DNA from: Planctomycetota bacterium
GTDB lineage: Bacteria > Planctomycetota > Phycisphaerae > UBA1845 > UTPLA1
NCBI GenBank assembly: GCA_016235815.1
Contig: JACRIM010000006.1
Span: forward strand, 1-44,970
Length of the DNA: 44,970 nucleotides
Direction: 5' to 3'
Both the position numbers and the translations under genes were made by a program. The number at the start of each line of letters is the position of its first letter. Positions within the stretch are counted from its first letter, which is position 1. Shown here in pieces: positions 7,263 through 44,439 of the stretch. Under the pieces are notes generated by a model. That model saw only the letters and a program-made list of their open reading frames with translations. It did no database searches and was not told the DNA's origin.

Positions 7263-7332
7263 GCGGTTTATGCCTTCGCACCAAGCTAGAATGCCCGCAT
7301 GAGTGAGGGCCCGCTACTTCGTTTTCCACTTC

Positions 7333-8700
7333 ATGGCTGAAACTAATTCTCAAACAGCCGTGCGTCGCCCCAGCGACCGCGCTTATGCGTGCATCCATTG
7401 GACGTTCATGGGTCTTATTGCGGCGTTGTGGCTGTTCGGCCAGTACGCATCGCGATACATCGATCTGCCGCGCGGGATTGGGTTTCGGCTTTTTGTCACC
7501 GGCATCGTGTGCATGAATGTTTTGTGGTGGTCGGTGGCCGACCGGCGGTTTGCGCGGCACGTATTGTCGGCGAAACGCAGTCGTTGGCTTCGGCTTGTCT
7601 CCGCGGCGTTTTCCATTGCGCTCATCGTTCCGCTGGTTGAGATGATCGTCATCGGGCGGTTCCCCAGTTTTTTGCAGACGGCCCCGACGTGGTACACGGG
7701 TGCGGTCACGATGTGGCACATTGGTCTTGCGGTGTTGATGCCCATGGTTGCGGGGCTGCGGTTGCTTGTGCTGGGGATCGCAGCGGGTGTGCGCCGGTTG
7801 CGACGTGCCTCAACCGTTATGCCCGAAGCCCGGCCTGTTGACCTGACGCGGCGTGCATTGCTCAAGACCAGTTTCGCGACGGTGCCGATGCTGGCGCTGA
7901 CCGGCGGCACGGCGTTTACGTATGTGCAGAACCGTCGGCTGCAGGTGAATCGGCGGGAGTTATCCGCGCCCTGGCTGCCGCCGCGGCTGCGAGGGCTCAC
8001 GATTACGCACATCAGCGACTTGCACGTCGGGCGTCTCTATCGGCCGGACCAACTTCCGCGCCTTGTTGAATTGGTAAACAAGCTTCGGAGCGACCTTATT
8101 GTTGTGACCGGAGACATCGTTGATGTTTCCAATGACATGCTTCCGCCGGCGCTGGAGGCCTTTGGCCAGATGCATGCTCCGCATGGCATGTTTGCGTGCA
8201 TCGGGAATCACGATGAGTTTGACGATCGGGCCGAGTTTATTTCTGCGGTGAACGAGCGATTTCCAATGCTCATCAATCAGCGCCGCACGCTGACGATCGG
8301 CGGCGAGCGGCTCACCCTTGGCGGTGTCGATTGGGCACGTTTTGACCAATCGTCCGGCCGTCGCGCCGGGCATCATCAACATGTGCAAACGATGCTAAGA
8401 GGATATGACGCCGTCGCCGACGGGCCGCTCGTCACGCTGGCCCATCATCCGCACGCGTGGGATTCACTGGCGCTGGCCGGCGTGCCGCTGACACTGTCGG
8501 GTCACACGCATGGCGGACAGATCATGCTGACGCCGCCCGATGTACGCCCCGACATCGGCGCGGGCGAGGTGCTTTTTCGGTACATTCGCGGCGTTTATGA
8601 GAAGCCGGGGAGTACGTTGTTTGTGAATCGCGGGGTGGGGAATTGGTTTCCGCTTCGGGTGAATTCGCCGGCGGAGATCGTGCAGATTCAGTTGGTGTAG
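7333..8700 (+). CDS. Membrane-anchored metallophosphoesterase (YkuE/YaeI-like)
   Basis: The N-terminal third holds about four membrane spans (WTFMGLIAALWLFGQY, LFVTGIVCMNVLWW, LVSAAFSIALIVPLVEMIVIG and a segment near VTMWHIGLAVLMPMVAGL). The calcineurin-like phosphoesterase domain follows, with all five metal blocks: ITHISDLHVG, VVTGDIVDVS, CIGNHDEFD, LAHHPHAWD and LSGHTHGGQ. YkuE-type relatives act at the membrane on phospholipid or nucleotide phosphoesters; the substrate here is unknown. The ATG at 7333 gives 455 residues. A GTG at 7303 would add 10. Neither has a good ribosome binding site. Confidence 0.87.
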   Translation: MAETNSQTAVRRPSDRAYACIHWTFMGLIAALWLFGQYASRYIDLPRGIGFRLFVTGIVCMNVLWWSVADRRFARHVLSAKRSRWLRLVSAAFSIALIVPLVEMIVIGRFPSFLQTAPTWYTGAVTMWHIGLAVLMPMVAGLRLLVLGIAAGVRRLRRASTVMPEARPVDLTRRALLKTSFATVPMLALTGGTAFTYVQNRRLQVNRRELSAPWLPPRLRGLTITHISDLHVGRLYRPDQLPRLVELVNKLRSDLIVVTGDIVDVSNDMLPPALEAFGQMHAPHGMFACIGNHDEFDDRAEFISAVNERFPMLINQRRTLTIGGERLTLGGVDWARFDQSSGRRAGHHQHVQTMLRGYDAVADGPLVTLAHHPHAWDSLALAGVPLTLSGHTHGGQIMLTPPDVRPDIGAGEVLFRYIRGVYEKPGSTLFVNRGVGNWFPLRVNSPAEIVQIQLV

Positions 8701-36056: not shown

Positions 36057-37292
36057 ATGCACCAGCGGTCGTTCCCGACCTTGACACTTCTTGCGATCGG
36101 CCTGCTCGCCTCGGCGGCTGGGTCCGGATGCCCGATGCAGGGGCCGCCGACGAACATGGTCCGCGACCCCATTCCGGCCATGCCTGCCACCGGCGTGAGA
36201 AACCTTGCCCCGCGCTGGCAAAAGACTAATTTGAGCTACTTCATCGCGACGTTTTCCACACGTCTGTCGCAGGATCGGCAGGTGCAACTGATCGCGGATG
36301 CGTTTGCCCGCTGGTCGGCCGTGACACCCTTGAACTTCACGCGCGTTACCGAAAGGGCGCAAGCTGATCTCGCGGTTGGCTTTGGGACCGCGCAGCATTG
36401 CGAACTGTATCCTGCCGGACTCAACGTCTGCCCCATGCAGGCGTTTGAGTCAACGACGATCGGCCATGCCTATTTTCCGAACGGCCAATTCGCCGGGTTG
36501 TGCCACATGAATGAAGCTTTCAACTTCTCCGATGAACGGCTGCTCTTCAGCACGCTGGTCCACGAGCTTGGTCATAACCTGGGGCTGGAACACCTTCCCA
36601 ATACTGACGCCGTAATGTTCGCCAATGACAACGGTCAGACCGGCACGCTGACGCAGGCGGACATCAGCGCCGTTCAGGCGCTTTATGGTTCGCGCGACGG
36701 CACTGTCATGGCCCAGCCTCGATCCGCCCCGCCGACGTCCGACACATCGGCCTCGCGAACCGCACCGACCACGATGCTGCCCGATGCCGACGGTGACGGG
36801 CTGGACGATGCGACGGAGCAATATGTTCTGGGGACGAATCCGAATAGCACGGACAGTGACGCCGACGGGGTGGCCGATGGCGTCGAGGCCGTCGCAGGGC
36901 TTGATCCGAATGACGCGGACACCGATGGCGACGGTGTCTCCGACGGCGTCGAATTCGACGGTACCGGCAATGCGTTTCGACCCGACTTTGCAACCCCGGG
37001 GAACGTGTCGGGGCTTGTGGGTAATTACGCCGGCGCCGACAACAAGGGCGCAGCGATCAATTTCGAGGTTGCCGCGGATGGCACAATTACGGGAACGATC
37101 TCCCTGTCTGTCCTCGGGTTCTCGGAAAACCTCTCCCTCATCGGCGCTGTCAATTCCACCGGGACCATCGAGATGGTGTCGTATGATTACTATTTCGAAT
37201 TCGAAGGCCTGATCGTCGGCACGACTGTGACCAACGGCCAGCTCTCTACCGACACCGGCGAGGCGGGCACGTGGACGGCGACGAAGAGCTGA
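36057..37292 (+). CDS. Matrixin-type (M10-like) metalloprotease lipoprotein with calcium-binding repeats
   Basis: This 411-residue protein has a lipoprotein signal (lipobox SAAGSGC, Cys25). The metzincin domain spans about 50-210, with zinc motif [11 protein letters not shown] (169-179) and Met-turn Met187. Next come thrombospondin-type-3-like Asp-rich calcium repeats at about 242-300 ([28 protein letters not shown]), each with the usual DxDxDG pattern. A beta-rich C-terminal domain follows. It is likely a surface-anchored endopeptidase stabilised by calcium. It stands alone. Confidence 0.88.
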
Positions 37293-37354
37293 TGTGCGCG
37301 ATTGACGCCGGATGTGAGCGGATATGACACCGGCAGATCGTTCTTGTATGCGCT

Positions 37355-37831
37355 CTACTGTTGCCGGTCCAACTGGCGATATTGCACTGCTTCGGCGACG
37401 TGTTCGGATTTGATCGCGGATGATCCCTCGATATCCGCGATCGTCCGGGCCACGCGCAGCACTTTGTCGTGGGCCCGTGCGGAGAGGCCCAACTCCCCCA
37501 TGGCCTGCTTGAGCACCAATTCCGATGCCGTGTCGAGCGGGCAGTGTTGACGAATCAGCCTTGGGCCCATTCGCGCGTTGAGCATCGTCTTCTTCTCACC
37601 GAAGCGGTCGCGCTGTCGTTGGCGTGCGGCGAGGACGGCGGCGCGCATCGTCGCCGAGTCGGTGCCCGGTTTGGAATGGCGCAGGTCGTTGAATGCGACG
37701 GCGTGGACTGAGACGTGAATATCAATCCGGTCGATCAGCGGCCCGCTTAAACGACCGCGATACTTCTCAATCTGCGGCTGCGAGCATTTGCAGGGCTTCC
37801 GCGGGTCGGAGTAATAGCCGCAGGGGCAGGC
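37355..37831 (-). pseudogene. comM: comM (yifB) 3' fragment, truncated at the CPCGY region
   Basis: Reading the minus strand, the frame encodes CPCGYYSDPRKPCKCSQPQIEKYRGRLSGPLIDRIDIHV, then the Mg-chelatase-related C-terminal domain (MLNARMGPRLIRQHCPLDT, then GLSARAHDKVLRVARTIADIEG). This is the last third of ComM/YifB, a hexameric helicase that helps branch migration in transformation. The part before CPCG (usually VAAMNP and the whole ATPase core) is missing; upstream residues (GRKATRA) do not match. The break at about 37831 abuts an XRE-type gene on the other strand and marks the start of a lower-G+C segment. Confidence 0.8.
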
Positions 37832-37836
37832 CCGCG

Positions 37837-38085
37837 TTGCCTTTCTGCCACCTGCACCTAAAAGCCAAAAAGCCCCGTCCGGGCTATCCAGTCAACCCGA
37901 CCACCTTCGGCGAGCGGCTCAAGAAATGGCGGCTGGATCGGGGTCTGCGGCAGGCGGATGTGGCCAAGCAGCTGGGGGTGGACCCCATGACCATTGTGAA
38001 TTGGGAGAGGGGGAGGACCAAGCCGAGGCGGAAGGCTCGAATCAGGATAATTGAATTCTTGAGCTACACTCTGAATTCCCAATAG
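37837..38085 (+). CDS. Short XRE-type helix-turn-helix protein, start uncertain
   Basis: Residues FGERLKKWRLDRGLRQADVAKQLGVDPMTIVNWERGRTKPRRKARIRIIEFL form a clear XRE DNA-binding domain, preceded by CHLHLKAKKPRPGYPVNP, a stretch I recall in short stand-alone XRE proteins of this kind. There is no ATG before the domain in a sensible place; a TTG at 37837 gives 82 residues. The comM break lies six bases upstream, so the 5' end of this gene may also have been lost in the rearrangement. It may be a relic or a regulator of the island. Confidence 0.6.
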   Translation: MPFCHLHLKAKKPRPGYPVNPTTFGERLKKWRLDRGLRQADVAKQLGVDPMTIVNWERGRTKPRRKARIRIIEFLSYTLNSQ

Positions 38086-38129
38086 TTCAGCATTTTAGGT
38101 GACATGTCTTATAATCTGGCGGACATGTG
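38086..38129 (+). promoter_or_regulatory. Promoter and operator-like GACATGT repeats of the peptide operon
   Basis: A consensus -10 box TATAAT (38110-38115) has a weak -35 (TTCAGC, 38086-38091). Two GACATGT boxes, 38101-38108 (GACATGTC, itself palindromic) and 38122-38129, flank the -10 box with 21 bases centre to centre, about two helical turns. This arrangement suits a repressor. The 61-residue peptide gene starts about 65 bases downstream. Confidence 0.5.
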
Positions 38130-38188
38130 CTCGCCAACATTAGTTGCGAAGCCTATTATTGTGCGGACTAGGATTTGAGGTGTACGAC

Positions 38189-38374
38189 ATGAGTGAACAA
38201 TCCGTATCTAAACCAGAACCCGTTGTACCAATCCTGACCGAATCTCGTTTGGATCGTTCTCCGTTAATGCGGTCGGTGGCAAAAATTCGCGAAGTACAGG
38301 ATCGCCACGCGGTTGAGATGGCAGACGGAGGCACAACAGGCCGAAGCGACACAAACGATCAGTCCATTAATTAA
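38189..38374 (+). CDS. 61-residue peptide, candidate precursor of a modified peptide
   Basis: The ATG at 38189 follows TGAGGTG eight bases upstream. The 61-residue product starts MSEQSVSKPEPVVPILTE, has a charged helical middle (SVAKIREVQDRHAVEMAD) and a Gly-Gly at 47-48, followed by a 13-residue polar tail TTGRSDTNDQSIN. There is no signal peptide and no Cys. A leader-like helix, a double glycine and a short Ser/Thr/Asp/Asn/Arg tail next to three enzyme genes fit a ribosomal peptide precursor; that is inference. It could also be a small conserved protein with another role. The stop lies 23 bases before the oxygenase start. Confidence 0.6.
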   Translation: MSEQSVSKPEPVVPILTESRLDRSPLMRSVAKIREVQDRHAVEMADGGTTGRSDTNDQSIN

Positions 38375-38397
38375 TTAGATCCCATTACGGCGACTTG

Positions 38398-39615
38398 ATG
38401 GCAATACGCACGCTAGACGACATGTTGACACCCATGTCGCGGGAGGAGTTTTTCGACTCCTACTGGGGAAAGAAATTTTGCCACATCTCCGGTGCTCGTG
38501 ATCGGTTTTGCGACCTACTGCCTTGGCAAAGCGTTAACGGAATTCTTGAAGATCATCAACTTCGCTATCCGCAAGTACGTATTGCAAAAGATGGTGAGTC
38601 TGGCTCGGCTGCAACGGGTGGATTCTTGCGCCAAGCTCGAACTCGGCGAGGCGAAGTCAGGTCGCAGATAGATGCAACGGCCTTGATTTCCGAACTTCGA
38701 AATGGTGCGACACTAATTCTCGATGCCGTTGACGATATGGTGGAATCTATCCGAGAGATCGCGGTGGACTTCGAAAGTATCTTTCGAGAGCCAATTCAGG
38801 CAAATGCATACGCTGGGTGGGGCACGTCGAAGGGATTCGATCTTCATTGGGATGATCACGATGTCCTCGTTGTTCAAATACATGGAAGCAAGAGTTGGAA
38901 GGTTTACGGCGCAAGACGCGAAGCCCCACTGTACTGCGATTTTCACTCAGATAACACGCAAGTTCCTAGCGAGCCAATATGGAGCGGAGTACTACAGGCC
39001 GGAGACGTTCTCTATCTTCCCCGAGGCTGGTGGCATGTTGCGGTTCCACTTGGCCATCCCACTCTTCATGTATCTTTCGGAATCAACCGACGCACGGGGA
39101 TTGATTTTTTGGCATGGATTGAGAGTCAGATGAGGGAGCGGGTGGAATTTCGTCGCGACTTGATTCGAATAGAGTCAACTGAACAGTCAGCCCAGTTAGC
39201 GGCTATGCGAAACATAGTTACTAATTTGTTTCAACCCCCAGCTGTAAAACAGTTCTTAGATGAGATGTGCATTCGCAGCCTGGCAAGACCCCGTATTGGA
39301 TTGCCTTGGACCGTTCTGCCGGCTGGGTTACCGCCAGACCAATATATTTTGAGGACGACTTTGCCACGGCCATTTGAGCGTCAAATCGATGCTATCTCGG
39401 AAGAGAGTATCGTGATACGCGGCCTTGCTAAAGTCTGGAGATTTGACATGGCCTGTGAACCACTCCTTCGAATCGCACTCGACGGACGAGGACATGCCCT
39501 GCAAGAATTGTTGATGATTCCAATCGTTGGCATCAACGATCCTGCTCGGCGGGATTTACTGAAGACCCTCATTTTGGAGGGATTGTTGTACATTCAGCAT
39601 CCTGGCGAGCGTTAG
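38398..39615 (+). CDS. JmjC/cupin-like Fe(II)/2-oxoglutarate oxygenase
   Basis: This 405-residue protein resembles ribosomal-oxygenase and cupin-4 type hydroxylases. MSREEFFDSYWGKKFCHISG (13-32) is the usual N-terminal helix-strand. The double-stranded beta-helix core has the iron triad His150 and Asp152 (LHWDDHDV) plus His213 (YLPRGWWHVAVPL), with Lys168 (HGSKSWKVY) placed to bind 2-oxoglutarate. The C-terminal part (about 235-405) is helical, like the dimer and winged-helix regions of this family. Relatives hydroxylate His, Arg, Asn or Asp side chains in ribosomal or other proteins. The adjacent small peptide is a natural candidate substrate. No strong ribosome binding site is visible. Confidence 0.8.
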   Translation: MAIRTLDDMLTPMSREEFFDSYWGKKFCHISGARDRFCDLLPWQSVNGILEDHQLRYPQVRIAKDGESGSAATGGFLRQARTRRGEVRSQIDATALISELRNGATLILDAVDDMVESIREIAVDFESIFREPIQANAYAGWGTSKGFDLHWDDHDVLVVQIHGSKSWKVYGARREAPLYCDFHSDNTQVPSEPIWSGVLQAGDVLYLPRGWWHVAVPLGHPTLHVSFGINRRTGIDFLAWIESQMRERVEFRRDLIRIESTEQSAQLAAMRNIVTNLFQPPAVKQFLDEMCIRSLARPRIGLPWTVLPAGLPPDQYILRTTLPRPFERQIDAISEESIVIRGLAKVWRFDMACEPLLRIALDGRGHALQELLMIPIVGINDPARRDLLKTLILEGLLYIQHPGER

Positions 39616-39646
39616 CAAAGGCGCCCTGCAGGCTTGGAGAGCGACG

Positions 39647-40618
39647 TTGCTACCCCCTTCGTTACCGCGTTTGGGCTGGGGTTCATATAGGCCGTGGCCT
39701 CAGTTGGATGAGTTCATCCAGACAATCATGCGTATCATGCCGATCGTAATAGACACGGCATCGAACTATCGCAACGGCAGAGGAGAACAAGACGTGCTAG
39801 ACCTGATCCAGCATGCGCACGCCGGAGGCCGTGTCAAGGATATCAATGCATGGTTCATTATTACGAAGATTGGATACATGGAGCACCGTTCGGATTTGCA
39901 TCTGTTAGAGGATCGTGACATTATTACACTGGAAGATATGAGAAAACAACACTCACTATCACCGCAATATATTGATACAGTATTGGAAAGCTTGAATGAT
40001 GCAAAGCTATCATCGCAGATCAACTGTGTCTTGCTACATAACCCAGAGCGATCGCTTCGACATTTGCTGCCGGCGGATCGCGAACGCAGGTTGTTAAAGG
40101 CGTTTGAGTTGTTGGAAGAGTGGTGTGGCTCCTGCCCCACTAGGTACTACGGAGTGGCCAGCTGGGATGGTTTTGGTACTCCGCGATCAAGTCCCGTCTT
40201 CACCGTTCACGAACTGGCTCTTATCGCTCGACGAATTGCTGGCGCCTCCCACCGCATGCGGTTCATTGAATTACCTGTTAGTTTTGTCAATATTTGGGCC
40301 GTACATGACTTACTACACTATCAAACCGGTCCAATTGCGGAGGCAATCCAGGAGAATATAGCAATCGTGGCCAGCTCTCCGCTTCATGGAGGCATGCTGC
40401 CGCGAGCAATCGACTCCGATTTTGCAGAATACGTGCGGCCTGGGGCCACATCAGGGCAAGCATGCCTATTGTTCAGCATGTCAGTACCGGGGATTTCCGT
40501 GACCGTGACCTCTCCGTCGGATCCGAAGCAGGCTGCAGCTGCAGTAGAAGTTGCTGGCTGGTCACTCCTAGACATTCGGGCGATTACGCACCTCGTAGAC
40601 TTAATCGTGTATGGTTGA
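39647..40618 (+). CDS. Aldo/keto reductase family protein
   Basis: A TTG start at 39647 is supported by GGAG eight bases upstream and gives 323 residues. It opens PRLGWGSYRPWPQ and keeps the AKR catalytic tetrad: Asp36 and Tyr41 (IDTASNYRNGRGEQDV), Lys74 (IITKIGY) and His131 (CVLLHNPE). The barrel strands continue with YYGVASWDG, ASSPLHGGML and VPGISVTVTSPSDPKQ, the last being the NADP-site region. The likely reaction is NADPH-dependent carbonyl or imine reduction. Its 3' end overlaps the next start by eight bases, so translation is coupled. Its A+T-rich codons differ from the flanking chromosome. Confidence 0.82.
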   Translation: MLPPSLPRLGWGSYRPWPQLDEFIQTIMRIMPIVIDTASNYRNGRGEQDVLDLIQHAHAGGRVKDINAWFIITKIGYMEHRSDLHLLEDRDIITLEDMRKQHSLSPQYIDTVLESLNDAKLSSQINCVLLHNPERSLRHLLPADRERRLLKAFELLEEWCGSCPTRYYGVASWDGFGTPRSSPVFTVHELALIARRIAGASHRMRFIELPVSFVNIWAVHDLLHYQTGPIAEAIQENIAIVASSPLHGGMLPRAIDSDFAEYVRPGATSGQACLLFSMSVPGISVTVTSPSDPKQAAAAVEVAGWSLLDIRAITHLVDLIVYG

Positions 40619-41426
40619 CTCAATTTCAGATCAACGATTCGAAGTATCATTGCAGCTGGCGGCTGCTTCGCTTGGTTTTGTCATTGAAGGAGGACCCAGT
40701 TATGGTTGGCGGCATAAGTCGGTTGGTGTTCGAGTGCGTAGTCTCGAAGGGGAAATCAAGTGGATGCGCCTGACCTATACAAGCCGAGGAGTGGCAGACT
40801 CGCGCCTTTTTTATGGTTATCGCGATGCACAATCGATTTTGGGCGTCAAAAAGCCTGACCTCGAGGGCTCAACAGAATGGGAAAACGAGGGGTTTATTTG
40901 GCGTGCGGATGTAATGACATATGTTGCTGAGCCAATGTGTTCATCTACACCAGATTTGCGAACATCCGTGACGCTGGATAATGATTGGTGGAAGTCACTT
41001 CGGACGAGTTTGGATCACCTTGGCCGAACAAGCACTTATCGAGTCTGTGTCCGCCAGGACTTGGTCACACGGCGCCTAAGCGAACGTTTTGGTGAAAGTC
41101 TTGATTCGGTAGTCCGTAATTGGGTTGTATCTCACGGCGATATTCATTGGGCCAATCTCACTTCAAACAGCTGTTGGATTCTTGATTGGGAAGGTTGGGG
41201 CCTCGCGCCGGCCGGCACCGACGCGGCATTTCTGATATGTTTTTCTGCTGCGAAGCCGCCAATCGTGGAGCGAATTCGTTCGGTATTTGGTCATGTTCTC
41301 GATACACCAGACGGGCGTCTCGCGCAACTCTTCGCATGTGCCGAGCTACTGCGGATGATTGAATTGTATGGCGATCATCCGCATTTAGAGACGCCGCTGT
41401 GGGAAATAGCCCATAGTCTACTATGA
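40611..41426 (+). CDS. APH-type phosphotransferase
   Basis: This 271-residue protein has a divergent N-lobe (a glycine-containing GGPSYGWRHKSVGVRV, then IKWMRLTY with a possible ATP-binding Lys50) and a clear C-lobe. The catalytic Brenner motif is VSHGDIHWANL (Asp177, Asn182), and the metal motif is ILDWEGWGLAP (Asp192). Aminoglycoside, choline and homoserine kinases share this fold. In several peptide pathways such enzymes phosphorylate Ser/Thr before elimination, which is why its place after the peptide, oxygenase and reductase genes matters. Antibiotic inactivation remains a possible alternative. Confidence 0.78.
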   Translation: MVDSISDQRFEVSLQLAAASLGFVIEGGPSYGWRHKSVGVRVRSLEGEIKWMRLTYTSRGVADSRLFYGYRDAQSILGVKKPDLEGSTEWENEGFIWRADVMTYVAEPMCSSTPDLRTSVTLDNDWWKSLRTSLDHLGRTSTYRVCVRQDLVTRRLSERFGESLDSVVRNWVVSHGDIHWANLTSNSCWILDWEGWGLAPAGTDAAFLICFSAAKPPIVERIRSVFGHVLDTPDGRLAQLFACAELLRMIELYGDHPHLETPLWEIAHSLL

Positions 41427-41434
41427 GGCCAACG

Positions 41435-42169
41435 TTATGCCACTTGTAGTACAACGCACGAGCAGTCATCAGCATCATCTCGCTGCATCGCCAGTTTAAC
41501 ACTCGCCATTGCTGCGGATTCTGGTGGAAGCGCATCCGCGATCTCGGCAAGCTCAACCGGCGTACACTCTGTCCAGACGCCATCGGTCACAAGAATCACG
41601 CAGTCACCGGGCATTACGCAGGTATATTCGCGGGTGAATACCCAACTGGGCAAAAACTGTGGGTCACCAAGCGAGTGCGTCAGTCTTCGTGCAAGCGGCG
41701 ATGTGCGTACCAGATCAGGCAGCGGATTCTCCAGCTGAATCTCCTCCGCTAAACGAGAATGATCCGGAGTAGACCAAGAAATCGATGTCTGGGATTTGAA
41801 CAAGGCTCTACTATCACCAACATGACCGATGAGGACTCCACTATTCTGCAAAACGGCAACAGTAAGCGTGGTACCGGAAGCACCACCATACCGACGTAAC
41901 AATAGTGCATTGACTTTTCCGAATAGGTCTCTAAGAATTGTCGGTGTCAGCGTAGTGCAAGCAATAATCTCGCGGACGATCAAATCAGCTACGCAGCGGC
42001 TTGCTTCTGTTGCATGAGATAGGCCGCCCATTCCATCAGCTACTGCTCCAACTATTAACCATTGTCCGTCAGGGTGAATGTGAATTTCGGAGGCCACTGA
42101 ATCCTCGTTGATGTGCCTGCCTGAAGATCGCCCCATACTCGCGCAGCCGATTAGACCGTTGATTCTCAT
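41435..42169 (-). CDS. PP2C-type protein serine/threonine phosphatase
   Basis: This 244-residue single-domain PPM phosphatase carries the metal-site motifs HINEDS (21-23 are Asn-Glu-Asp), VADGMGG (about 43-49), GHVGDSRA, ILVTDGVW and the final DDCSCVV. It lacks membrane or kinase domains. The stop faces the stop of the phosphotransferase gene with only eight bases between, so the two are convergent. It might reverse a kinase signal, but no Ser/Thr kinase is in view. Its base composition matches the lower-G+C island. Confidence 0.85.
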   Translation of the reverse strand: MRINGLIGCASMGRSSGRHINEDSVASEIHIHPDGQWLIVGAVADGMGGLSHATEASRCVADLIVREIIACTTLTPTILRDLFGKVNALLLRRYGGASGTTLTVAVLQNSGVLIGHVGDSRALFKSQTSISWSTPDHSRLAEEIQLENPLPDLVRTSPLARRLTHSLGDPQFLPSWVFTREYTCVMPGDCVILVTDGVWTECTPVELAEIADALPPESAAMASVKLAMQRDDADDCSCVVLQVA

Positions 42170-42260
42170 AGACTGCAGTTTTGTGGTTGATCAACTAATT
42201 CGGCCAACATGATGCAAATTGTAGCACATCTGATGCTGCGCACGCTTTAACCCTGCCTTA

Positions 42261-43439
42261 TCACTTGCAAAACTGACATTCGCCACTAAACGGTTTCGAC
42301 ACCACCCCGTTCACCATCAATCTCAGATAAATGTGGTGGTTCGGCAGGCCCATCAAGTCTTCTCCGTCGAACTCCGGTGCGAATCGCGGCGCCAGGGCCT
42401 TGGCATCCTCAGGCCCGACGCGGAAGCAGATCGTCGTCCCGACGTTGCCCAACACAGCCTCTTTGACCGCATCGTTCAACTGCCCCAAATGCTGATGAGC
42501 CAGCACCATGCCCACCTTGTACTTGCGGAACTCGGCCAACATATCGGCCAGTGCCTGCGTCGTGAACGATTGAAACTCATCCAAGAACACGAAGAAATCC
42601 CGCCGCCGCTCCTCAGCCAGTTCCGCCCGACTTAGGGCAACCACACCCACGGCCGAGAGTAGGAGTGAACCAAGCAGAGCAGCCGCATCCTCACCGATCA
42701 GCCCGCGCGAAAGTTTGACGAGCAGCACCTTGCCGGTGTCCATGATCTCCCGCAGGCTAAAACTACTGCGCCGCTGGGTGAGGATCGGGTTGAGCACCGG
42801 GTGGGAGAGGAACGCCCCTACCTTGTTCTGGATGGGGGCGATGGCCTCCGCCCTCAGGTGCGGTGTATACCCCTCATATTCCTGCAACCAGAAACTCCGC
42901 ACGGCGGCATTGCCGCAGTTCATGACCGCCTGCTTGCGGTAGCTGGCATCGGCGAAGAGCCGGGGGATGTCGGCCAGCGTGGCGCTGGGCTGGTCTAGTA
43001 ATAACAACACGGCATTACGCAGAACGTGCTCCAGTCGCGGTCCCCAGAAGTCCGGCCAGAGTTTTTTGAAGGCGTCGAGGAGGAAGGAGGCCATGAGATG
43101 GCGGCGGGACTCAAGCAGCGGAGCCAGGGGATTGAAACCCAGCGGGTTCGCGGTGTCCGCAACATTCCAATAGATCACGTCACTGCGTCGTTTATCCGGC
43201 ACGGACTCCGCGATGCGCTTGACCAGATCGCCGTGTGGATCGAGGAGGAGCAAGCCTTGGCCCGTTCCGATGTCCTGGCGAATCAACGTTTCGAGCAGCG
43301 TCGACTTCCCAGTACCGGTCTGGCCCATGATGTGCATATGCGAGCGTCGGTCCACTTGTTTGATCCCGAACACCTTCCGCTCATTACGGAAATTGGTGCG
43401 GGCAAAGAGGCAGACGCGTTCATCGGGCCAAGCTGACAT
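42261..43439 (-). CDS. Type IV secretion/conjugation-type DNA-transfer ATPase (TraD/HerA-like)
   Basis: This is a 392-residue P-loop ATPase: Walker A GQTGTGKST (39-47), LLLLDPHGDLVKRIAESVP, WNVADTANPLGFNPLAP, Walker B DFFVFLDEFQSF (281-292) and the arginine-rich ALADMLAEFRKYKVGMVLAHQHLGQL region. These are the marks of the TraG/TraD-type coupling and DUF87/HerA families that move DNA or substrates through conjugation systems. No membrane span precedes the P-loop, so it is soluble or partnered. A TTG start at 43484 would add 15 residues. The gene is divergent from the SWIM gene, sharing a roughly 160-bp control region. Confidence 0.85.
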   Translation of the reverse strand: MSAWPDERVCLFARTNFRNERKVFGIKQVDRRSHMHIMGQTGTGKSTLLETLIRQDIGTGQGLLLLDPHGDLVKRIAESVPDKRRSDVIYWNVADTANPLGFNPLAPLLESRRHLMASFLLDAFKKLWPDFWGPRLEHVLRNAVLLLLDQPSATLADIPRLFADASYRKQAVMNCGNAAVRSFWLQEYEGYTPHLRAEAIAPIQNKVGAFLSHPVLNPILTQRRSSFSLREIMDTGKVLLVKLSRGLIGEDAAALLGSLLLSAVGVVALSRAELAEERRRDFFVFLDEFQSFTTQALADMLAEFRKYKVGMVLAHQHLGQLNDAVKEAVLGNVGTTICFRVGPEDAKALAPRFAPEFDGEDLMGLPNHHIYLRLMVNGVVSKPFSGECQFCK

Positions 43440-43599
43440 GCCCTCAGTTTGGAGCCATAGCAATCCTCCGCGCAGACGCTCCAAGTTGCCGGTGCCAGCA
43501 AGTTTTGGCGTCTAGGGACCCCCTTCCCGGACGCGCTACCCTGAACGCAGTCGTTTAGTTCTTTTCCAACCCCCTTTTTCTCTAGAAAGGAGAACCATC

Positions 43600-44439
43600 A
43601 TGACTGCGACCGAGTTAGAACGACGGGAGCGGCGCGCCGAAAACGAGCCGCTGGTCATCCTGCGACGGGAGGATCAGAATGATTTTCTGATCTACTCGCC
43701 CACGGCCCCGGCCAAACAGTACGTGGTCAGCAGCGACGAACAGGGCCTGACCTGTACCTGCCCTGACTTCCGCTCGCACCAGGCCGATCCCGATTGGCAG
43801 TGCAAGCACATCCTGGCGGTTTGTCGACAGGGCGGCTCACCGCCCAGTAACGGCGAACTGCGCATTGCCACCAGCTCCCAGAGCGGTGGCGGTGGACCAA
43901 GTCAACTCTTGATCCGCCGGAGCGTCAGCCCGGACGGCAAGATCGACTCCCTGTCCATCGAGTGGTCCTGCCCGATCGATGAATGGACGCACCCTGAGGT
44001 GGCCGCCCATGCCCTGCAGGTCTTGACTATTGCCGATGGCATCATCGAGCAATATCTCGGCCCGAAACCGGCGGCGCCAGTCTCATCGCGGGTGTCGACA
44101 CCGATCCCGATTCGCACCCAGCCCCCGACCAACGGCCACGGGCTCCTGCCCGCCCAGTTGGTTTCCATCGGCGGAATGGATGGGCGATTTGGTCGGCGGT
44201 TGTTTCTGCAATTCGAATCACCGGCCGGCTCGATGCGTCTGTTTGGCTCGGCCAAGCAGTTGGCCGAGGCGCTTCAACGGGCGGGCTATGCCCATCTGGC
44301 CGGGAACATCGTGGAGGGATTGCCCCTCAACGTGCCCTGTCAGGTGATGACCAAGCCATCGGCCGATGGTCGATACCAAAACGTGGATCAAGTGCTGCCT
44401 CCGTCGACGGGGAACGCCCCGAGGCGGTGGGTGGCATGA
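43600..44439 (+). CDS. SWIM zinc-finger protein
   Basis: This 279-residue protein follows a good ribosome binding site (AAAGGAGAA). The SWIM finger is seen at 52-70: Cys52, Cys54, Cys68 and His70 (TCTCPDFRSH, then WQCKHILAVC). A central acidic/hydrophobic segment (LLIRRSVSPDGKIDSLSIEWSCPID) and a C-terminal region (FGRRLFLQFESPAGSMRLFGSAKQLAEALQRAGY) are not assigned. SWIM domains bind DNA or proteins and often occur with mobile-element nucleases. Its stop codon overlaps the ATG of the nuclease gene. Confidence 0.82.
   Translation: MTATELERRERRAENEPLVILRREDQNDFLIYSPTAPAKQYVVSSDEQGLTCTCPDFRSHQADPDWQCKHILAVCRQGGSPPSNGELRIATSSQSGGGGPSQLLIRRSVSPDGKIDSLSIEWSCPIDEWTHPEVAAHALQVLTIADGIIEQYLGPKPAAPVSSRVSTPIPIRTQPPTNGHGLLPAQLVSIGGMDGRFGRRLFLQFESPAGSMRLFGSAKQLAEALQRAGYAHLAGNIVEGLPLNVPCQVMTKPSADGRYQNVDQVLPPSTGNAPRRWVA

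Follow-up and report, generated by a model that had tools for sequence, protein, structure and literature searches.

A putative RiPP-type cassette built around a ROX-type JmjC oxygenase, apparently carried on a comM-inserted element of a planctomycete

The four-gene cassette and its peptide

What might a small peptide gene be doing directly in front of an oxygenase related to the ribosomal oxygenases (ROX)? In the first 44,970 nucleotides of contig JACRIM010000006.1 (assembly GCA_016235815.1, a Planctomycetota bacterium), the whole stretch analysed and hereafter the window, four plus-strand genes follow one another: a peptide gene, a JmjC-type oxygenase, an aldo/keto reductase (AKR) and an APH-fold kinase (Table 1). 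Together they probably form a compact cassette of the ribosomally synthesized and post-translationally modified peptide (RiPP) type, which is apparently the cargo at one end of a comM-inserted element. Comparison of the genes leaves the RiPP-like reading well supported, and the cassette very probably makes a chemically altered peptide. All four genes lie where the initial annotation had placed them, and the spacing that it gave is also correct, with 23 bases between the peptide gene and the oxygenase ATG, 31 bases between oxygenase and AKR, and an overlap of 8 bases between AKR and kinase. The AKR start codon is TTG. A Shine-Dalgarno-like GAGGTG, read directly from the sequence at 38177-38182, stands 6 bases 5' of the peptide ATG. 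The promoter of its own that had been assigned to the peptide gene was dropped: there is one 9-of-12 site at 38131-38159, and the region has five such sites against 4.9 expected from shuffles, which is chance level.

The window peptide, with Gly-Gly at G47-G48 and the tail TTGRSDTNDQSIN, has no match in Pfam, NCBIfam or PADLOC. A profile of eight Streptomyces plasmid peptides nevertheless puts it first of the 1114 open reading frames (ORFs) of the window (E 5e-6, the next ORF at 0.89), and an independent profile of 15 other actinomycete peptides does the same (E 5.2e-4, next 0.21); both were built without the window peptide and from actinomycete sequences only. When 58 loci with 12,544 ORFs are searched, the second profile has 28 matches (15 of them its own training sequences), all directly upstream of a JmjC gene and 0 elsewhere, and the first finds its own eight peptides plus one unrelated ORF at E 0.018. 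In the eight Streptomyces homologues the ratio of nonsynonymous to synonymous differences (pN/pS) is 0.109, over all pairs and counting single-difference codons only. The first rank in two profiles built without the window peptide, together with this pN/pS, argues that the peptide gene is more than a chance ORF. Sequence comparison thus shows a conserved coding gene in the small ORF, with a JmjC oxygenase of the ROX type as its partner. A tblastn search of plasmids with the window peptide reaches the annotated small coding sequence (CDS) directly before the JmjC gene of pSglau1 at E 0.6, among 15 weak records. H124, a match from the pSglau1 peptide search, has neither a cupin nor an AKR gene in the annotation next to it, looks like chance and was rejected.

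The alignment of the peptides shows two conserved blocks, one N-terminal and one in the tail, without an identified cut site or protease. Residues 24-39 may act as a recognition leader and residues 45-57 as the modified core. The plasmid peptides terminate in SDGGGTGRSDGND or near variants, with a final SDGND in seven of the eight profile peptides; SDMNDT (L044) and GKGDGND (L056) are among the ends reported. The initial annotation had envisaged a Gly-Gly-type leader followed by a variable tail, but conservation is highest in the tail, and the two glycines lie inside the conserved motif DGG-TGRSDxND. The C39-type peptidase/exporter that it suggested looking for did not appear either, the source genome (95.5% complete) having no Peptidase_C39 (PF03412) match. 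Gly-Gly is thus not supported by sequence as a cut site, and a GG-leader bacteriocin with C39 processing was rejected on these two grounds.

The catalytic residues of all three enzymes are kept, which we count in favour of the cassette. The oxygenase matches JmjC_2 at 9.6e-26, and its HxD...H iron triad (H150, D152, H213) is invariant in 29 of 29 sequences. Its profile finds NO66 in the PDB at 2.4e-26, and also MINA, YxbC and YcfD; the predicted model (predicted local distance difference test score, pLDDT, 86.1) superposes on NO66 with a Z-score of 26.8 and a root-mean-square deviation (rmsd) of 7.2 over 377 residues, aligned over 1-402, and on YcfD with a Z-score of 20.0 and an rmsd of 4.9 over 331. 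After the JmjC domain, the model has a C-terminal winged helix in β3-α3 order. When 13 such C-terminal domains were tested as RiPP recognition elements (RREs), four matched PqqD (best 0.001), an IclR helix-turn-helix (HTH) matched better (7.2e-6), and the window's own domain had no match. The AKR catalytic tetrad is Asp-Tyr-Lys-His, and D36, Y41, K74 and H131 are invariant in 16 of 16 sequences. The kinase matches Pfam APH at 0.002, below the curated cut-off; its H175, D177, N182 and D192 (HxDxxxxN and the metal-binding Asp) are invariant in 19 of 19. The APH-type assignment of the initial annotation gains from the predicted fold (pLDDT 87.7), whose best match is a putative APH with a Z-score of 17.7, and the lexapeptide kinase LxmK (9dk3_A) scores 15.0.

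Table 1. Features of the cassette and its surroundings, in window positions
Feature	Position	Strand	Basis
Precursor-like peptide gene	38189..38374	+	61 codons/aa; coordinates confirmed in window
Leader-like block, residues 24-39 (SPLMRSVAKIREVQDRH)	38258..38305	+	Aligns with SGLLLAARRIxxARxR / EGLLVAVEVLxxVHDR in homologues
Core motif, residues 45-57 (ADGGTTGRSDTND)	38321..38359	+	Matches SDGGGTGRSDGND of Streptomyces plasmid peptides
JmjC (PF08007, ROX-type) Fe(II)/2-oxoglutarate oxygenase with C-terminal winged helix	38398..39615	+	Pfam, triad, model
Aldo/keto reductase (AKR)	39647..40618	+	Pfam Aldo_ket_red 5.7e-8; tetrad residues
APH-fold kinase	40611..41426	+	Catalytic residues; predicted model
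PP2C phosphatase, outside the recurring cassette	41435..42169	-	Pfam PP2C_2 1.5e-11; convergent with kinase
HTH (XRE-type) ORF region, between element end and cassette	37873..38085	+	Pfam HTH_3 3.4e-10
comM C-terminal fragment and element junction (about 37830-37840)	37376..37840	-	TIGR00368 positions 344-499

Recurrence of the pair, its partners and its setting

A scan of genome contigs with the window JmjC protein, which reaches close relatives only, returned 39 loci: 15 from Acidobacteria (L002-L016), one from Paceibacterota (L017) and 23 from actinomycetes (L018-L040). The initial annotation had proposed to look for small ORFs directly upstream of homologous oxygenases, and one is found at 38 of the 38 loci with upstream DNA (L016 has none), 23 by profile, 14 as Asp-rich and one, at L017, judged by eye. 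The peptide profile matches at all 23 actinomycete loci, 12 of which are among its 15 training sequences. An Asp-rich small ORF precedes the oxygenase at 14 of 14 acidobacterial loci with upstream DNA; it was picked as the most Asp-rich near the oxygenase, a choice that favours the result. These ORFs are longer; they open with a stretch like SGLLLSV(D/E)PL and contain many DSDGTD/DADGTD units, and the conserved SGLL-type leader starts 12 of the 14 (L007 and L013 are cut by the contig start). The small ORF of L017 lies 16 bases upstream and ends SDYGDANDTAND. As expected of a RiPP, a candidate precursor is therefore encoded beside its presumed modifying enzyme and the two are conserved as a pair.

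The same four-part set is found again on plasmids of Streptomyces and on chromosomes of actinomycetes. The JmjC query matches 99 plasmid records, 25 of them from Escherichia, so not all 99 are cassettes; the APH-like query matches 65, of which 60 are Streptomyces. Among ten plasmid JmjC loci that we picked for an annotation view (L042-L047, L050, L051, L056, L066), the annotation of eight includes a small CDS that lies 14-21 bases ahead of the cupin/JmjC gene, and in L046 and L056 the small ORF is present but unannotated. In the tree, the window JmjC lies between the plasmid and acidobacterial clades without a resolved placement (94/92, not starred). The oxygenase was found in one of 392 genomes of the phylum at E 1e-20, that of the source itself, where peptide and oxygenase have one copy each.

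The enzyme set varies more than the pair. Kinase and AKR accompany it at 20 and 18, respectively, of 22 actinomycete loci (L018-L039; one of the two without a kinase, L037, has only 727 bases downstream, and L040 ends at a contig edge), at nine and eight of nine plasmid loci (L042-L047, L050, L051, L056), and at three and one of three IMG/VR loci (L058-L060); L066 has the same gene order by annotation only. The recurrence of the enzyme set thus holds for kinase and AKR in part, the AKR not being essential, since four actinomycete, one plasmid and two IMG/VR loci are without it. At the acidobacterial loci neither AKR nor kinase was matched (0 of 15 each), and a Suc_Fer-like gene follows the JmjC gene in 15 of 15 (Pfam check on L005); L017 has no AKR, kinase or Suc_Fer-like partner. 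These counts make peptide and JmjC the constant pair, and kinase and AKR lineage-bound additions. The acidobacterial loci, with their DSDGTD-repeat Asp-rich ORF, JmjC and Suc_Fer-like gene, look like a distinct branch. A cupin/JmjC gene stands at three of ten APH-homologue loci viewed (L050, L051, L056); at six others (L048, L049, L052-L055) other partners or none were noticed, and L057, which lacks annotation, was not searched for JmjC. The kinase family therefore also occurs outside this cassette. It adjoins radical S-adenosylmethionine (SAM)/SPASM genes (L048, L049, L055) and an FxLD-system methyltransferase (L054), a setting that we count in favour of the RiPP-type reading. In L042 a divergent HTH/tetratricopeptide repeat (TPR) regulator lies before the cassette (7303-8631, minus strand), and L043-L045 are alike.

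In the source genome comM is split, apparently by an inserted element, and the cassette lies some 350 bases in from one of the element's ends. The first part of comM (TIGR00368 positions 3-370), ending MNP, is on contig C32 (L061), adjoined by a serine recombinase (Resolvase 1.9e-30, Recombinase 9.7e-19), and the last part, starting CPCG, is in the window. At the element ends there are inverted arms of 18 bases, identical at 16 of 18 positions, a score reached by 1 of 2000 shuffles. The split comM, the adjoining recombinase and the inverted arms suggest that a large serine recombinase inserted the element, whose two ends are on different contigs; the cassette would be its cargo at one end. GC content is about 51% over 38.1-42.3 kb and about 60% on both sides, and the low-GC stretch also includes the PP2C gene, which ends 9 bases from the kinase gene. 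The phosphatase matches the PADLOC model PDC-M21C at 3.4e-9, perhaps merely as a general PP2C match; as a fifth part of the cassette it was rejected, with no homologue in the 51 loci searched. Further out are a TraD/TrwB-like coupling ATPase (42261-43484, minus strand; Pfam TrwB_AAD_bind 3.4e-14) and, by Pfam, a matrixin-type (M10) metalloprotease with TSP3-like repeats (36057-37292, plus strand). None of the four cassette genes matches PADLOC and Rfam has no match in 37300-43600, and readings as a defence system or an RNA element were dropped.

Proposed chemistry and its alternatives

Which residue might the oxygenase modify? We counted 47 cores, several of them near copies, leaving out L016, L007 and L013, and L017 because the leader pattern did not match it. 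Asp is present in all 47, at least three times in each, and the dipeptide DG in 46; Cys is in none, and 30 cores lack Arg, 29 Lys, 19 His, 4 Asn and 43 Phe. The core pattern clipped the window peptide too early, and its strict tail contains three Asp, three Gly, three Thr and two Ser. If one residue type is the common JmjC target, Asp would be the best candidate; the Asp side chain is a known hydroxylation target in this enzyme superfamily. A lanthipeptide of any class was rejected for the lack of Cys.

In the mechanism that we propose, the peptide is very likely the substrate, recognised through its N-terminal L-L-x-x-V-x-x-[LI]...R block and modified in its Asp-Gly tail. There is about an even chance that the JmjC enzyme hydroxylates tail side chains, most likely the β-carbons of Asp in SDG / SDxND motifs. 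The kinase could perhaps phosphorylate Ser/Thr or the new hydroxyl, and, more doubtfully, the AKR might reduce or oxidise a carbonyl or alcohol at a modified residue in those clusters that have one. Since no dedicated protease or exporter is seen, maturation or release would use host functions.

Several points weigh against this reading. The cassette is known from its genes alone, and the division into leader and core is one that we infer. Gly and Ser/Thr are as universal in the cores as Asp (47 of 47 each), and the ROX enzymes of known function, going by the names of the matched structures, hydroxylate Arg or His, not Asp. The two profile groups recognise each other weakly: in a search space of Z=1114, the actinomycete profile finds L044 at 4.1e-4, L043 at 0.0075, L047 at 0.022, L050 at 0.59, L051 at 4.5 and L056 at 5.6, and does not report the L042 and L045 peptides. 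The acidobacterial peptides are linked to the actinomycete ones by the place of their genes, by Asp-rich cores and by an SGLL motif that was recognised by eye. The kinase profile has no significant PDB sequence match, which leaves the APH fold to the model, and the usual β3 Lys position seems, by eye, to be an invariant Arg (R53), so kinase activity is not certain.

How else could the cassette be read? The nearest solved relatives of the JmjC enzyme are NO66, MINA and YcfD, and it could be an ordinary ribosomal oxygenase beside an unrelated regulatory peptide or operon leader; yet the gene is patchy and mobile, found in one of the 392 genomes of the phylum at the threshold given above and present on many plasmids, and its partner peptides are specific to each family and under purifying selection, which makes this scarcely likely at all. 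It is also very unlikely that the peptide serves as a carrier or scaffold, with a small molecule assembled on its acidic C-terminus and later set free. Enzymes for adenylation, ligation or aminoacyl transfer are not among the recurring parts of the cassette, and the long repetitive Asp-rich tails of Acidobacteria better suit many modification sites, even though a peptide that is short, acidic and conserved to its last residues, the lack of a visible protease or exporter, and an AKR and kinase of kinds common among small-molecule enzymes would all fit a carrier.

Two further alternatives concern what the product might be for. The peptide could be a signal, sensed in its modified form by the divergent HTH/TPR (NsdA-family) regulator beside the Streptomyces plasmid cassettes. 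The L042 regulator matches the NsdA family at 4.1e-47, HTH or TPR matches occur in L043-L045, L056 has a 'transcriptional regulator' and L066 a divergent 443-aa hypothetical protein. We consider a signal improbable, given that by annotation L051 has no such gene at that place, that L047 has an insertion sequence there, that the window has just a short same-strand HTH ORF, and that NsdA-type genes are widespread in Streptomyces; the open-licence literature gave nothing relevant on these regulators. Metal binding, in which hydroxylated Asp-Gly repeats would chelate Fe or Ca for acquisition or storage, is unlikely but has more to recommend it: the many DSDGTD/DADGTD units of the acidobacterial cores resemble Ca-binding loops, and β-hydroxy-Asp is a siderophore iron ligand. 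Against it, the tails of the Streptomyces and window peptides are short and contain few Asp, and no transporter recurs; it concerns only the use of the product.

A RiPP-type cassette remains our preferred reading. A wider view, which we would put a little short of even, is that of a RiPP family led by ROX-type JmjC enzymes, with Asp-Gly cores that lack Cys. It would take in Acidobacteriota (long precursors with DSDGTD repeats and a Suc_Fer-like, ferredoxin-type partner), the plasmids and chromosomes of Actinomycetota (with APH kinase and AKR) and the element described here, and would yield peptides multiply β-hydroxylated on Asp, possibly phosphorylated and metal-binding. If true, this would be a new RiPP family whose lead enzyme is related to ribosomal oxygenases, and the relatives of those oxygenases would gain a peptide-tailoring branch with a genetically linked substrate. 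The cassettes, small and self-contained (four genes, about 3.2 kb), would lend themselves to expression in laboratory hosts, and the long acidobacterial precursors would be unusual substrates for repeated hydroxylation.

Relation to known systems

The initial annotation knew of no described class with this enzyme set, and we found none with the peptide or the enzyme set in open-licence PubMed Central papers, subscription papers lying outside this coverage. The APH fold of the kinase, in its model, and its being encoded with a peptide are reminiscent of LxmK of the class V lanthipeptides. The absence of Cys from all 47 cores implies no lanthionine chemistry, unlike the LxmK system, and no LxmY-type partner was noticed at the cassette loci, although none was searched for.

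Fusions of an RRE with JmjC (PF08007), and bacterial homologues in RiPP-like contexts, have been reported (PMC12710340), and the cassette shares with them the C-terminal β3-α3 winged domain and the RiPP-like surroundings. Our loci may overlap with those homologues, for which the parts of that paper available to us describe no precursor family, enzyme set or chemistry. A precedent from RiPP pathways is BipG, described in the text consulted as a JmjC ornithine γ-hydroxylase acting on the biphenomycin RiPP precursor (PMC12707348), to which BpmG/PbsQ are related (PMC12257519); on this account, JmjC enzymes do act on RiPP precursors. Like the cassette, BipG/BpmG combine a JmjC Fe(II)/2-oxoglutarate enzyme with an encoded RiPP precursor, whose side chains they modify. 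As those accounts present them, they are accessory to a multinuclear non-heme iron-dependent oxidative enzyme (MNIO), a radical SAM enzyme and an arginase on an aromatic core (PMC12707348, PMC12257519), whereas in the cassette the JmjC enzyme is the sole oxygenase seen, although no profile search for MNIO or radical SAM genes was made at these loci, and the cores are rich in Asp-Gly and mostly free of Phe.

In fold, in the JmjC_2 and winged helix architecture and in the catalytic triad, the cassette oxygenase resembles NO66, MINA and YcfD. The known substrates of those enzymes are ribosomal proteins, whereas the cassette enzyme comes with a dedicated small peptide, in an operon, as a mobile gene.

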